A stretch of 5,411 nt of DNA from the NCBI GenBank assembly GCA_902465145.1, contig CABQMD010000078.1, positions 1 to 5,411 of the forward strand, given 5' to 3'. Made by a program: the position numbers and the translations under genes. Below the pieces are notes generated by a model. The model ran no database searches and was not told the origin of the DNA. It was given only the letters and a program-made list of their open reading frames with translations. This stretch comes from an uncultured Succinatimonas sp. GTDB lineage: Bacteria; Pseudomonadota; Gammaproteobacteria; Enterobacterales; Succinivibrionaceae. Positions 1 through 5,411 of this stretch are shown here, piece after piece; the stretch's first letter is position 1; every line of letters starts with the position of its first letter.

Positions 1-736
1 CATCCGGCCGATACGCCCCGGGTTTCCGGTAACCGCACGAACTTTCGATTTTGCCGGTGACAAAAAGCCCATGTTTAAGTTGCATACCGACAATCACGGT
101 CCTTTGCGCGGTTACGGAGCCTGCGTAAGCTCAATTCTTTTGAAAAAACAGTTGCGTGCACTCATGCAGGCAGATCCTTCAAAAAAGATCCGCATCGTAT
201 TTCCTCTGGTTACAAGATTGTCAGAGGCTTTATACCTTAAAAAACTGGCTTCAGACTGCCATACGGAGCTTGAAAACGAACATAAATCTCACTCTGACTA
301 CGAACTGGCGCTAATGATTGAAACTCCCGCAGCCGTGCTTTCGGCAGAAGCGTTTGCCGGAGAATTTTCCATGTTCATAATCGGAACAAGTTCTCTTGCT
401 GAATACGCATGTGCGCCGCGACCTGACGATTCATCTTTTACCCCGCCTCTGGCAAAATTAATCGTAACTGCCGCCAAAGCTGCTTATAACTCAGGCATTC
501 CCATAGGCGTTGCAGGACGTTTTGCAGGACGGGCTGAGCTCATGGCCTTCTTTTGGCATATAGGGGTTTCCTACGTATCTGTGGACTGTTATGAAATAGC
601 CAGCCTCAGAACCGCGGTTGAAAGACTGGATCTTGGCAGTAAAAAACCTTTTTTTGACGAAACGTTATATGACAAGGTTATGAATATCTTCCGCGGTCAG
701 GAAATATCTGCTCTTATCAACAATCTGAATGCGTAA
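1..736 (+). CDS. ptsI: PTS Enzyme I-like protein, C-terminal PEP-binding part, catalytically degenerate (5' partial)
   Basis: The frame is open from base 2, without a stop, to TAA at 734-736, so the gene begins outside the window; the ATG at 71 is internal. The 244 visible residues match the C-terminal PEP-binding barrel of Enzyme I, which normally takes phosphate from PEP and passes it to HPr in the cytoplasm. Recognisable blocks are RTFDFAGDK (E. coli RTMDIGGDK), MIETPAA, IIGTSSLAEY (SIGTNDLTQY) and GVAGRFAGR (GMCGELAGD). Arg332 (38-40), Lys340 (62-64) and Glu431 (320-322) are kept. Arg358 is Gly (116-118), Asn454-Asp455 are Ser-Ser (389-394), Arg465 is Pro (422-424), Cys502 is Ala (512-514) and Glu504 is Arg (518-520). 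PEP turnover is therefore unlikely (inference). A crr-like gene follows 21 nt later, the usual ptsI-crr order, which favours a PtsI origin over the nitrogen-type PtsP. The phosphohistidine (His189) and HPr lie outside the window. Family assignment is confident; activity is doubtful. Confidence 0.88.
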   Translation, partial: IRPIRPGFPVTARTFDFAGDKKPMFKLHTDNHGPLRGYGACVSSILLKKQLRALMQADPSKKIRIVFPLVTRLSEALYLKKLASDCHTELENEHKSHSDYELALMIETPAAVLSAEAFAGEFSMFIIGTSSLAEYACAPRPDDSSFTPPLAKLIVTAAKAAYNSGIPIGVAGRFAGRAELMAFFWHIGVSYVSVDCYEIASLRTAVERLDLGSKKPFFDETLYDKVMNIFRGQEISALINNLNA

Positions 737-748
737 AACCTTATAATC

Positions 749-752
749 GGAG
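749..752 (+). promoter_or_regulatory. Ribosome binding site of the crr-like gene
   Basis: GGAG lies 5 nt before the ATG at 758, inside the 21-nt gap after the EI-like stop codon. It supports that start and suggests the degenerate EIIA protein is still translated, probably from a transcript shared with the EI-like gene. Confidence 0.7.
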
Positions 753-757
753 TTGCC

Positions 758-1309
758 ATGTCTTTTTTTAAAAAACTTTTAAATCGCATAGGAGGCAATG
801 CCACACCTTTAGTCTCCGATGCTGATCTTGAATTGTGTGCTCCTGTATCAGGAACTCTTATTCCTATCGACGAAGTCCCGGATCCGGTGATCTGCGAACG
901 CATTGCAGGCGACGGCTGTGCTTTCATTCCAGAAAGCGATTGCATGGTCTCACCTTGTGACGGAGTGATCACCAGGTTGCTGTCGTCAAACACGGCTTTC
1001 GTTGTACGCGCTTCCTGCGGAACGGAAATTTATGTACGGTTCGGCATAGGTACCGGTAACTTTCAAGGAAACGGTTTTAGTTCTTTAAAAAAAGCAGGCG
1101 ATCAGGTTACAAAAGGAGAAAAAATTATAGCCATCGATCTTGAGCAATGTTCAGATTTACTAAAATCAACGGTTACCTCAATGATCGCCATAAAAAGCAG
1201 TTCCGATATTGAAAGGGTTGCCAGTGTAGGAGGGAAAGTGCAGGCAGGATCAACTCCCTGCATGTGGGTATTTCTCAAGCCGAAGGATCACGTAACTGCT
1301 TCGACGTAA
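758..1309 (+). CDS. crr: EIIA-Glc (Crr)-like protein lacking both active-site histidines
   Basis: This complete 183-residue protein belongs to the glucose-type EIIA family (E. coli Crr is 169 residues). EIIA-Glc normally takes phosphate from HPr at His90, passes it to EIIB-Glc, and controls adenylate cyclase and sugar permeases through its phosphorylation state. Family blocks are in order: APVSGTLIPIDEVPDPV (residues 28-44; E. coli APLSGEIVNIEDVPDVV), GDG, SPCDGVI, SSNTAF (76-81), IYVRFGIGT (91-99) and a late KSTVTSM segment. In the alignment His75 of NHAF is Thr79 (codon 992-994) and His90 of VHFGIDT is Arg94 (codon 1037-1039), with the same 15-residue spacing as in E. coli; Asp94 of that motif is Gly98. 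It cannot be phosphorylated in the usual way. The N-terminus MSFFKKLLNRIGG keeps the short amphipathic, lysine-containing character of the E. coli membrane-binding helix. The frame is intact and has a good ribosome binding site, so a simple frameshifted pseudogene is not seen. A retained binding or regulatory role, or recent loss of function, are both possible. Confidence 0.88.
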   Translation: MSFFKKLLNRIGGNATPLVSDADLELCAPVSGTLIPIDEVPDPVICERIAGDGCAFIPESDCMVSPCDGVITRLLSSNTAFVVRASCGTEIYVRFGIGTGNFQGNGFSSLKKAGDQVTKGEKIIAIDLEQCSDLLKSTVTSMIAIKSSSDIERVASVGGKVQAGSTPCMWVFLKPKDHVTAST

Positions 1310-2509: not shown

Positions 2510-3949
2510 TTAAAGCAGAGCGTCGATTTCTTCAACGGTCTTCTTGGCATCGCCGAAGCACATGGAGGTGTTGTCCTTGAAGAACAGCGGATTCTGAACA
2601 CCGGCATAACCAGGATTCATGGAACGCTTGAACACCACCACATTATGAGCCTTCCAAACGGTCAGAACAGGCATACCTGCAATAGGGCTTGAAGGATCCT
2701 CTGCTGCTGCAGGGTTGACGGTATCATTGGCACCAATCACGAGTACGGTATCGGTGTTTTCGAAATCGTCATTGATCTCGTCCATTTCCAAAACGATGTC
2801 ATAAGGTACTTTGGCTTCTGCCAACAGTACGTTCATATGACCGGGCAGACGACCTGCAACGGGATGAATGGCAAAACGAACTTCAATACCGCGAGCCTGC
2901 AATCTCTCGACCAAAGTAGCAACTGCATTCTGAGCCTGTGCCACAGCCATGCCGTAGCCCGGGGCAATGATCACGGAAGAAGAATTCTTCAAAAGTTCGG
3001 CAACGTCAGCTACCTTCATCTCGTGGTATTCACCGTAGTCCTTGTCTTCTTTGGCAGCAGGAGCATTGCCGAAGCCGCCTGCAATCACGGAAATGAAGGA
3101 GCGGTTCATGGCTTTGCACATGATGTAGGAAAGGATGGCACCAGAGGAGCCGACGAGAGCACCGGTCACGATGAGCAGATCGTTATCAAGCATGAATCCT
3201 GAAGCCGCGGCAGCCCATCCTGAATAAGAATTCAACATGGAAATAACCACAGGCATATCAGCACCGCCGATGGCAACTACCAAGTTGACACCGAAAGCCA
3301 AGGCGATCACGGTCATGATGAAAAGCGGAGCTGCGGAAGCTTCGACACCGCCGTTTAAGAACCAGATCATAAGCAGGAAGCATACGATGATGGCTCCCAA
3401 GTTGATCCAATGGTTGGCAGGCAGCACCAAAGGAGCTGACTTGAAGATGCGCAGTTTATAAGTACCGTTCAATTTGCCGTAGGCAATGATGGAACCGGTA
3501 AAGGTTACGGCACCGATGAACACGCCGATGAAAATTTCACCAAGATGGATACCGAGTTCACCGGTCTCTTCCATGTGAACGGCATTGGTGATGCCGGCAG
3601 CCACGTCAAAGACACCGTCAAGTTCCAAGAAAGTGTTGAAACCTACGAGTACAGCGCACAAACCGACGAAAGAGTGCAGGCAGGCAATGAGTTCAGGCAT
3701 CTGAGTCATCTGAACCTTACGTGCGGCGAAAAGACCGACCACTGCACCTATCAGCATGGCGACGATAATGATGCAAACTGCACCGGCTCCGTCAGCCTTG
3801 GTAAAGGTAGCCAAAAGAGCAATAGCCATACCGGCTACACCGGAATAACAACCGAGTTTGGCAGTTTCCTGCTTGGACAAACCGGCCAAAGCCAGAATAA
3901 ACAGCAGTGCCGAGAATATATAGGCAATATAGGTTAAGCCTTCAGACAT
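2510..3949 (-). CDS. pntB: NAD(P) transhydrogenase subunit beta
   Basis: PntB is the inner-membrane subunit that couples proton flow to hydride transfer from NADH to NADP+, together with PntA. The 479-residue protein is slightly longer than E. coli PntB (462) and nearly collinear with it. The N-terminal two thirds is the membrane domain: [14 protein letters not shown] holds the proton-pathway histidine (His92, E. coli His91), and GGADMPVV holds Asp231 (E. coli Asp213) before the conserved [10 protein letters not shown] helix. A variable linker at about 292-312 leads to the NADP(H) domain with [10 protein letters not shown] (331-340), [12 protein letters not shown] (362-373), EINDDF (391-396), [10 protein letters not shown] (406-415) and [10 protein letters not shown] (441-450). 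All expected motifs are intact. The ATG at 3949 is supported by AGGAG 7 nt upstream. It follows pntA by 18 nt and ends before a strong terminator, so it is the last gene of the operon. Confidence 0.97.
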
Positions 3950-3956
3950 TTTATTT

Positions 3957-3961
3957 CTCCT
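3957..3961 (-). promoter_or_regulatory. Ribosome binding site of pntB
   Basis: AGGAG on the minus strand, 7 nt before the pntB ATG, lies in the 18-nt gap after the pntA stop codon. It fixes the pntB start and shows separate initiation of the second subunit rather than an overlapping start. Confidence 0.8.
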
Positions 3962-3967
3962 ATCCCC

Positions 3968-5411
3968 TTATTTGCCCTGCTTTCTGAACATGCCCAACAT
4001 ACGACGGGTCACTGCGAAACCGCCGAAAATGTTTACTGACACGATCACGGTACCGATAAAGGCAAGAATTGCGGCAACTACTGAGCCGCCGGAGGTATGA
4101 ACCTGCTCCATGGCACCGACCACGATAATACCAGAAATGGCATTGGTAACCGACATCAAAGGAGTATGCAAAGAGTGAGTGACGTTCCAAACTACATAGT
4201 AGCCTACAACCACTGCAAGCACGAACACGGTAAAGTGCGGCAGGAATGCAGTAGGAGCAAACGCACCGATCAGGATGAAGCACAACACTGCCAATGCAGC
4301 ACAACCCCATTTGAGAACCGGTGATACTTTGTGAACTTCAACCTTGGGAGCTTCAGCAGGTTTCTGGGCTGCAGGAGCTGCAGAAACACTGATCTTCGGA
4401 GGCGGGAAGGTAACCTCGCCGTCGCGGGTCACGGTCATATTGCGGATCACGACGTCGTCAAAGTTGAGATCAACTTTGCCGTCCTTGTTCTTGCACAGAA
4501 GTTTGGCCAGATTTACAAGGTTGGTGGAATATAGCTGAGATGACTGAGCAGGCAGACGTGAAGCAAGATCGGTATAACCTATAACCTTGACGCCGTTATC
4601 GGTAGTAATAACCTCACCAGGAACAGTAGCAGCGCAGTTACCGCCGCCGGCAGCAGCCATATCAACGATTACTGATCCTGACTTCATGGAAGCTACCATT
4701 TCCTTTGTAATTAACAAAGGAGATTTCTTACCGGGAATGGCTGCGGTGGTGATGATGATGTCAACGTCTTTGCACTGCTTAGCAAAGAGTTCCATCTCGG
4801 CTTTGATATAGCCTTCGCTCATGACCTTGGCATAACCGTCTGACGAGTCTTTTCCTTCCTCTTTATAATCAAGACGCAGGAATTCACCGCCCATGGATTT
4901 GATCTGATCTGCTACCACTTCACGAGTATCGAAAGCGCGTACTACGGCACCCAGTGAATGGGCAGTACCGATGGCGGCAAGACCTGCAACGCCGGCGCCG
5001 ATCACCAAAACTTTGGCAGGAGGTACCTTGCCTGCTGCGGTAACCTGACCGGTAAAGAACCTGCCGAAAGCATGGGCAGCTTCAACTACGGCACGATATC
5101 CTGAAATATTTGCGGTGGAAGACAGAGCGTCCATGGACTGAGCACGGGAAATTCTCGGCACCATATCCATGGCCATCACGGTAACTTTCTTGGCGTTGAG
5201 TTTTTCAACAAGTTCCTGATTCTGAGCCGGACGAATGAACGACACCAAAATTTGGCCTTCCTTCATGAATCCGATTTCATCGTCGTTCGGAGCGTTTACC
5301 TTGAAAATGATATCGCTTCCCCATACATCCTTAGGGGTAACGACTTTGGCGCCGGCTTCTTCGTAGGCGGCATCAGTGAAACTGGCATCAGCACCGGCTC
5401 CGCTTTGCACC
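3968..5411 (-). CDS. pntA: NAD(P) transhydrogenase subunit alpha (N-terminus outside window)
   Basis: PntA carries the NAD(H)-binding domain and the first membrane helices of the proton-translocating transhydrogenase. The frame is open to the right edge. The first full codon, GTG at 5410, reads as Val in VQSGAG (E. coli VESGAG, about residue 35) and is not a start, so roughly 34 N-terminal residues are missing; 480 are visible. Landmarks in visible numbering are [15 protein letters not shown] (84-98), FGRFFTGQ (115-122), the Rossmann loop GAGVAGLAA (138-146) with the nucleotide-selecting Asp161 in [11 protein letters not shown] (191-198), IPGKKSPLL (225-233) and the mobile loop [17 protein letters not shown] (278-294). 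An Ala/Pro-rich linker (about 343-357) joins this to C-terminal transmembrane helices beginning near 365, including the conserved [18 protein letters not shown] block (403-420). No key residue looks lost. It ends in TAA 18 nt before pntB; the promoter would lie beyond the right edge. Confidence 0.97.

Follow-up and report, generated by a model that had tools for sequence, protein, structure and literature searches.

A probable phosphotransfer-dead EI–EIIA pair in the Succinivibrionaceae

The window (the whole 5,411-nucleotide stretch of Succinatimonas DNA analyzed here) opens with a homolog of Enzyme I followed by a homolog of EIIAGlc, which we term EI' and EIIA'. We conclude that together they are very probably a pair, conserved in this family of bacteria from gut and rumen, that is dead in phosphotransfer and is not a pseudogene. 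Judged by synteny and trees, it most likely represents the old ptsI-crr locus of the Gammaproteobacteria. Its parts are given below, with residues numbered as in E. coli and the frames aligned to solved structures.

2–736, + strand: open frame of the C-terminal (PEP-binding) part of EI' (PF02896, E 8e-29); its 5' end lies beyond the window
116–118, + strand: Gly codon at the Enzyme I Arg358 position; Gly in 39/39 genomes
389–394, + strand: Ser-Ser codons at the Enzyme I Asn454-Asp455 position; Ser-Ser in 39/39 genomes
512–514, + strand: Ala codon at the position of the Enzyme I acid Cys502; Ala in 38 and Val in 1 of 39 genomes
749–752, + strand: GGAG, ribosome-binding-site-like, ahead of EIIA' and 5 nt before its ATG
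758–1309, + strand: EIIA', a His-less EIIAGlc homolog of 183 codons (PF00358, E 1.2e-30)
992–994, + strand: Thr codon at the EIIAGlc His75 position
1037–1039, + strand: Arg codon at the phosphoacceptor His90 position of EIIAGlc; no His in 40/40 loci
L001:1813–3510: complete EI' ortholog, in a locus with 98.6% DNA identity to the window

The original prediction had described adjacent open frames in ptsI-crr order, carrying the fold motifs and separated by a good ribosome-binding site, and each of these elements was found where it had been placed, with 21 bases between EI' and EIIA'. It had further proposed that both partners lost their key catalytic residues; this held for R358, N454, D455, and C502 of EI' and for His75 and His90 of EIIA' but not for His189 of EI', which is kept.

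Fixed substitutions and retained residues in EI'

Scanning genome contigs yielded 80 loci (L001–L080), and our reference set covers the 21 that ranked highest (L001–L021). All 21 are titled as Succinivibrionaceae genera except L004, which is titled Aeromonadales, and L001, a Succinatimonas MAG, matches the window over its whole length at 98.6%. Among 56 genomes of the family that we searched, 39 carry both EI' and EIIA'; residue counts take one locus from each of these 39 genomes plus one from G046, giving 40 loci.

The EI frame in the window keeps R332, K340, and E431 and carries the substitutions R358G, N454S, D455S, and C502A. The alignment across the 39 genomes showed the same residues throughout (G358, S454, and S455 in all, position 502 varying as listed above), with R465 in none and R296, R332, K340, and E431 in every one. 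The residues substituted in EI and EIIA have established roles in the binding of PEP and in phosphotransfer. The pattern, with three residues fixed in 39/39 and C502 lost in 39/39, is far beyond chance. The joint invariance of the four substituted positions was matched by only 30 of 20,000 random four-position sets. A protein search with an EI' profile returned 236 matches at E 1e-60 or better, and among the matches listed (the best 120 of 236) G358, S454, S455, and A502 were present together with His189 in 120/120; one of the listed relatives is named phosphotransferase system enzyme I in its source.

His189 was found in 38 of the 39 EI' sequences, the remaining one being cut short by a contig end; its codon lies outside the window and is present in L001. 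Because EI' keeps His189, not every catalytic residue has been lost, and some phosphate chemistry on EI' may remain. We took the N-domain positions D82, R126, M78, and E68 to be contacts for HPr. The first three are mostly replaced in EI' and remain in almost every row of the two groups of intact EI; at E68, EI' has a replacement too, and one intact group has Gln there. The fixed R296, R332, K340, and E431 suggest a pocket retained for a ligand, and that EI' senses a metabolite through this pocket is a guess.

The complete EI' in L001 is 565 aa long from the first start codon. It scored 170.9 bits with the Enzyme I model TIGR01417, under the cut-off of 341.7 bits, compared with 530.5 bits for an intact paralog (L126) and 376.1 bits for an EI of the sister group described below (L221). 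The mobile domain was still recognized (PF00391, E 7e-12). An AlphaFold model of EI' (pLDDT 78.7, pTM 0.55) matched full-length Enzyme I in Foldseek with a best E of 1.4e-34 and a TM of about 0.47, and its C-terminal domain alone reached a TM of up to 0.77 by target.

EIIA' keeps the fold and a candidate membrane helix

EIIA' has His90 in 0/40 loci and His75 in 1/40 (G026). Both the Pfam domain and the EIIAGlc fold were found: an AlphaFold model (pLDDT 76.5, pTM 0.74) matched E. coli IIAGlc (1f3g) in Foldseek with E 1.7e-14 and a TM of 0.87 by target. The window EIIA' scored 93.6 bits with TIGR00830, under the cut-off of 97.5, compared with 136.9 and 120.2 bits for two intact EIIAs (L146 and L150) and 136.9 bits for a sister-group EIIA (L221).

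The N terminus of the window EIIA' is the amphipathic stretch MSFFKKLLNRI, with a hydrophobic moment of 0.83 that about 1% of 300 shuffles reached, and most EIIA' members begin with an M(S/G)xFxxLF-like stretch. Only 11 of 34 EIIA' rows had a moment within the top 5% of their shuffles, L006 and L007 standing at 45%; the N terminus of E. coli EIIAGlc stands at 8%. In the model, residues 1–17 have low confidence (pLDDT <50). Short intact EIIAs of the family have no such N terminus, and the set that we labeled live2 has a similar one. In V. cholerae, EIIAGlc requires its N-terminal helix to work with integral membrane partners but not with cytoplasmic ones and not for phosphotransfer, and its membrane association is independent of phosphorylation state (PMC6123446). 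From its sequence and by this analogy, EIIA' is likely tethered to the membrane through a predicted N-terminal helix.

The cassette probably lies at the ancestral pts locus

The order at the cassette is ligA-zipA-cysZ-EI'-EIIA'-pntBA, with variable genes preceding pntB/pntA and pnt present in most loci; the order in E. coli is ligA-zipA-cysZ-cysK-ptsH-ptsI-crr. The shared ligA-zipA-cysZ surroundings therefore place the cassette where the pts genes probably stood ancestrally, with cysK and ptsH missing. The original prediction had proposed inspecting the gene upstream of EI' for an HPr homolog; that gene was cysZ in 35 of 39 loci, that is, wherever it was in view, and no ptsH was seen beside EI' among the loci with flanks in view. 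The EI' frames are open in all 39 genomes, two of them cut by contig ends.

In G046 the EI' gene is gone and EIIA' lies 13 bp behind cysZ (L305:4563–5949), so EIIA' can persist in the absence of EI'. G048 has no EI' and carries an intact EI, a short EIIA, and a weak further EIIA match; in the search of the 56 family genomes, EI' was also absent from seven others (G049–G055). An EIIAGlc gene in G054 and G055 (L307, L308) follows what looks like a thrABC operon, judged by visual inspection of the sequence, and the G055 protein has Asn at the His75 position; an HPr search of these two genomes gave no match.

The rest of the window holds genes on the minus strand. A divergent Lgt-like gene occupies 1371–2126 (PF01790, 115.8 bits; 141.6 bits with NF000778 versus a cut-off of 334); G001, the nearest genome, carries another lgt with a stronger match at a different place, and lgt matches numbered two each in G007, G008, and G011 and one in G004. 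It is followed by a small membrane protein of 90 aa (2133–2405) with weak likeness to DUF4190 (25 bits versus a cut-off of 35) and by the transhydrogenase genes pntB and pntA (2510–5410), which lie downstream of the cassette in most loci. A megablast search of phages gave no match to the window. In a plasmid collection, 259 records matched, and among the 20 matches listed, all fall inside the pnt genes.

Sister genomes, trees, and selection

A sister group of genomes seems to show intermediate stages in the loss of phosphate chemistry. Its EIs (G028, G030–G035) have lost the R358 segment in 7/7 and keep N454, D455, R465, and C502, and the EIIAs of eight sister genomes (these seven and G056) retain both His residues. 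An HPr gene adjoins EI in two of them (G028 and G056), with Val or Asp at His15. The sister EI lies between cysZ and pntB in G028, G030, and G033, as in the main group but with an L,D-transpeptidase gene placed behind cysZ, and the flanks in the other four genomes do not show this placement. In G056, the pts genes are inverted beside ligA-zipA-cysZ, and EI is split across three open frames. At L220, L221, and L222 an L,D-transpeptidase gene (PF03734) separates cysZ from the pts genes and is on the opposite strand.

In the EI tree, EI' (29 rows) forms one clade and sister EI (7 rows) another, the two join with SH-aLRT support of 99–100, and two intact EI groups are placed elsewhere. The 46 EIIA' rows, which include a few duplicates, form one clade with support of 100 in the EIIA tree. 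These were quick trees, and several rows, including some of the sister group, drew warnings for long branches and odd composition; we therefore used only the grouping.

NG86 dN/dS over seven between-genome pairs was 0.014–0.086 for EI' and 0.028–0.173 for EIIA', compared with 0.027–0.110 for intact EI (4 pairs) and 0.031–0.072 for intact EIIA (2 pairs); dS exceeded 2 and was saturated in some pairs. Such low ratios argue that the pair is maintained and is no pseudogene. The coordinated loss and joint retention of two adjacent partners, as originally proposed, is thus borne out across the group, with purifying selection on both genes. The signs of decay that the original prediction had named, frames broken in sister strains and a dN/dS near 1, were not found for the cassette.

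Intact PTS components are encoded elsewhere in the same genomes

The original prediction had read the loss as pointing to a lineage that had given up its sugar PTS, an idea that the genomes do not support. All 21 reference genomes carry a separate EI that is intact at the nine positions inspected (one ends before C502), and all have at least one HPr match. We read 20 HPrs, which come from 18 of the reference genomes (all but G013, G016, and G019), and each has His15. Twenty of the 21 also have a further EIIA match, and a both-His EIIA was among those read in 19; this reading left out G016 and some weak matches (e.g., in G006 and G014). In G017, only a His-less EIIA was found, and G007 has, in addition, a weak EIIA homolog (L159) lacking both His residues. 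In each of the two genomes checked, G001 and that of Succinivibrio dextrinosolvens (G007), one protein passes the fructose cut-offs TIGR01427, TIGR00848, and TIGR00829, which together cover the EIIA, EIIB, and EIIC domains, although these proteins reached no full-length equivalog cut-off in NCBIfam. Since PF02378 missed the fructose EIIC in both genomes, we did not read its absence as absence of EIIC. In G037 the matches lie on one 3.47-Mb contig, which brings together EI', EIIA', an intact EIIA, one His15-bearing HPr, and additional EI-type matches.

We considered whether all EIIAs of the family had lost their His residues and ruled this out, as 21 short and 15 live2 EIIA rows hold both. At the three loci that we scanned (L146, L149, L150), the short intact EIIA gene lies next to genes for a sugar-type ABC permease, a sugar isomerase-like protein, YhcH, or an FGGY kinase, which gives the impression that EIIA has been incorporated into sugar operons outside the PTS. 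In the main-group HPrs with His15 (L160–L182, L238–L267), the Ser46 position is taken by Gly, Arg, His, or Asn.

CysZ as a candidate partner

The gene upstream of EI' belongs to PF07264 (EI24/CysZ). It is codirectional with EI' in 35/35 loci with cysZ in view, and, taking first possible start codons, the two are separated by no more than 26 bases or overlap in 26/35; on the same footing, EI' and EIIA' are separated by less than 10 bases in 20/39. G046, which lacks EI', still has cysZ and EIIA' side by side. The cysZ-pts order is ancestral, however, so the adjacency may be inertia.

After removal of the pntA/pntB/ligA signal, distance residuals over 15 genomes gave correlations of 0.68 for EI'-cysZ and 0.55 for EIIA'-cysZ. 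In the same 15 genomes, the control EIIA'-zipA (0.43) about equaled EI'-EIIA' (0.44), and over 13 genomes these values were 0.36 and 0.59. With EIIA' giving much the same value against the zipA control, the correlation is nonspecific, and we rejected it as proof of EI'-EIIA' contact.

The sulfate-binding loop of CysZ, given as GLR(R) in its published description (PMC5967866), is altered in the cassette protein: Gly is lost in 36/36, Cys is present in 33/36, and one Arg is kept in 35/36, so that GIRR in E. coli has become mostly (E/Q)-C-R-x. The core motif QYxDYxxDNHK is largely kept. With one Arg and most of the core motif retained, CysZ may still move sulfate or another anion.

As a marker of sulfate activation we searched PF01507 alone, which we take to be the CysD/CysH family. 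It was missing in 21 of the 23 EIIA'-bearing genomes tested (G001–G021, G037, G046), most of them draft assemblies, and G037 is among the 21; the exceptions, G017 and G046, have a protein of ~590 codons with PF01507. The same search matched in 14/14 well-known genomes. CysZ thus seems to have no CysD/CysH-type assimilatory sulfate reduction to feed. PF01507 is also missing in the sister genomes G028 and G034, so its absence is not peculiar to the main group. From gene order, correlated rates, and this absence together, we infer that CysZ is possibly the partner of the pair, an assignment we hold loosely.

Proposed role and alternatives

With the EIIA phosphoacceptor and the PEP/Mg residues of EI gone, phosphotransfer through the pair is most unlikely, and regulation by contact alone is the simplest remaining role and a probable one. 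We tentatively favor, at somewhat short of even confidence, an account in which the old ptsI-crr locus turned into a conserved phosphotransfer-deficient contact pair with a CysZ-type channel as its most probable partner. Held at the membrane by its predicted N-terminal helix, EIIA' would attach to an integral membrane protein and control it; the likeliest such protein is the CysZ-type channel that the upstream gene encodes. EI' would sense a ligand or act as a scaffold and would not be a kinase. A fuller version is speculative and rather unlikely in all its parts: the whole EI and EIIAGlc branch would have become a phosphate-free module gating a repurposed CysZ, with a pseudo-EI that senses a PEP-like metabolite and signals through contact to a pseudo-EIIA anchored in the membrane on CysZ, in bacteria that operate another, working PTS.

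The strongest competitor, less likely than the favored account, makes EIIA' a permanent mimic of dephospho-EIIAGlc acting on sugar permeases, glycerol kinase, and adenylate cyclase, with EI' as passenger or modulator; inducer exclusion or cAMP control would then be always on. The retained EIIAGlc fold fits such a role, as do the targets, since an E. coli-type adenylate cyclase is present in 20/21 genomes and a glycerol kinase scores above its cut-off in 12/21, and in G001, G004, G006, G007, and G011 the strong second EIIA is short and lacks the N-terminal helix. However, F41 and F88 of EIIAGlc, presumably part of the partner-binding face, are changed (F41I and F88Y) in 46/46 EIIA' rows, and an always-on inhibitor would require another control.

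It is improbable that EI' has instead been neofunctionalized into a PEP-site enzyme of different chemistry with EIIA' as an accessory subunit. Such an enzyme could account for the new and invariant set of residues in the EI' pocket, and the barrel fold is common to lyases and aldolases (weak Foldseek matches), but N454, D455, R465, and the acid C502 are lost, and G046 keeps EIIA' without any EI'.

Slightly less probable still, EI' could be phosphorylated on His189 by HPr~P or an unknown donor and report that state. Its near-universal His189 and recognizable mobile domain speak for this; weighing against it are the absence of His90 from every EIIA', the predominant replacement in EI' of the HPr contacts D82, R126, and M78, and the lack of any ptsH seen beside EI'.

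Simple pseudogenization in progress, to which the several lost catalytic residues and the frame-broken EI beside cysZ in G056 might point, is very improbable, and we rejected it on the low dN/dS (0.01–0.17) and residue fixation, with open frames and the same substitutions in 39 genomes and one clade for each protein.

Comparison with known systems

The cassette resembles E. coli PtsI/Crr (ptsHI-crr) in its folds, gene order, and ligA-zipA-cysZ neighborhood. It differs in having neither ptsH nor cysK, in an EI' without R358, N454, D455, C502, and R465, and in an EIIA' without His90 and nearly always without His75; scores under the TIGR01417 and TIGR00830 cut-offs further set EI' and EIIA' apart from PtsI and Crr. 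Genes of this type can nevertheless get named ptsI and crr and pass as proof of a glucose PTS.

In PTS proteins, the roles of phosphate carrier and contact regulator coexist, and in E. coli the two are hard to separate. Nature seems to have split them here, with the phosphate chemistry lost and the fold pair kept by selection beside intact paralogs. A chemistry-dead yet maintained pair, together with intact paralogs and sister intermediates, makes a phosphorylation-independent function of EI and EIIA directly testable.

Most EIIA' share with V. cholerae EIIAGlc an M(S/G)xFxxLF-like N terminus (PMC6123446), but the V. cholerae protein is phosphorylated and EIIA' cannot be at His90. The upstream PF07264 gene, with its core motif largely kept, resembles the CysZ sulfate channel (PMC5967866) and departs from it in the binding loop.

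In the open-licence PMC literature, we found no description of an EI'-EIIA' pair. His-less regulatory PTS homologs are already known: Crh of Bacillus is an HPr paralog without the active-site His and with the kinase site at Ser46. Crh and the present pair are alike in that a PTS carrier fold has outlasted its phosphoacceptor His and serves, or on our reading would serve, in regulation; they differ in that Crh is a paralog of HPr, whereas here EI and EIIA changed together at the pts locus. What is new is that two consecutive PTS components were altered together at that locus, with intermediates in sister genomes.
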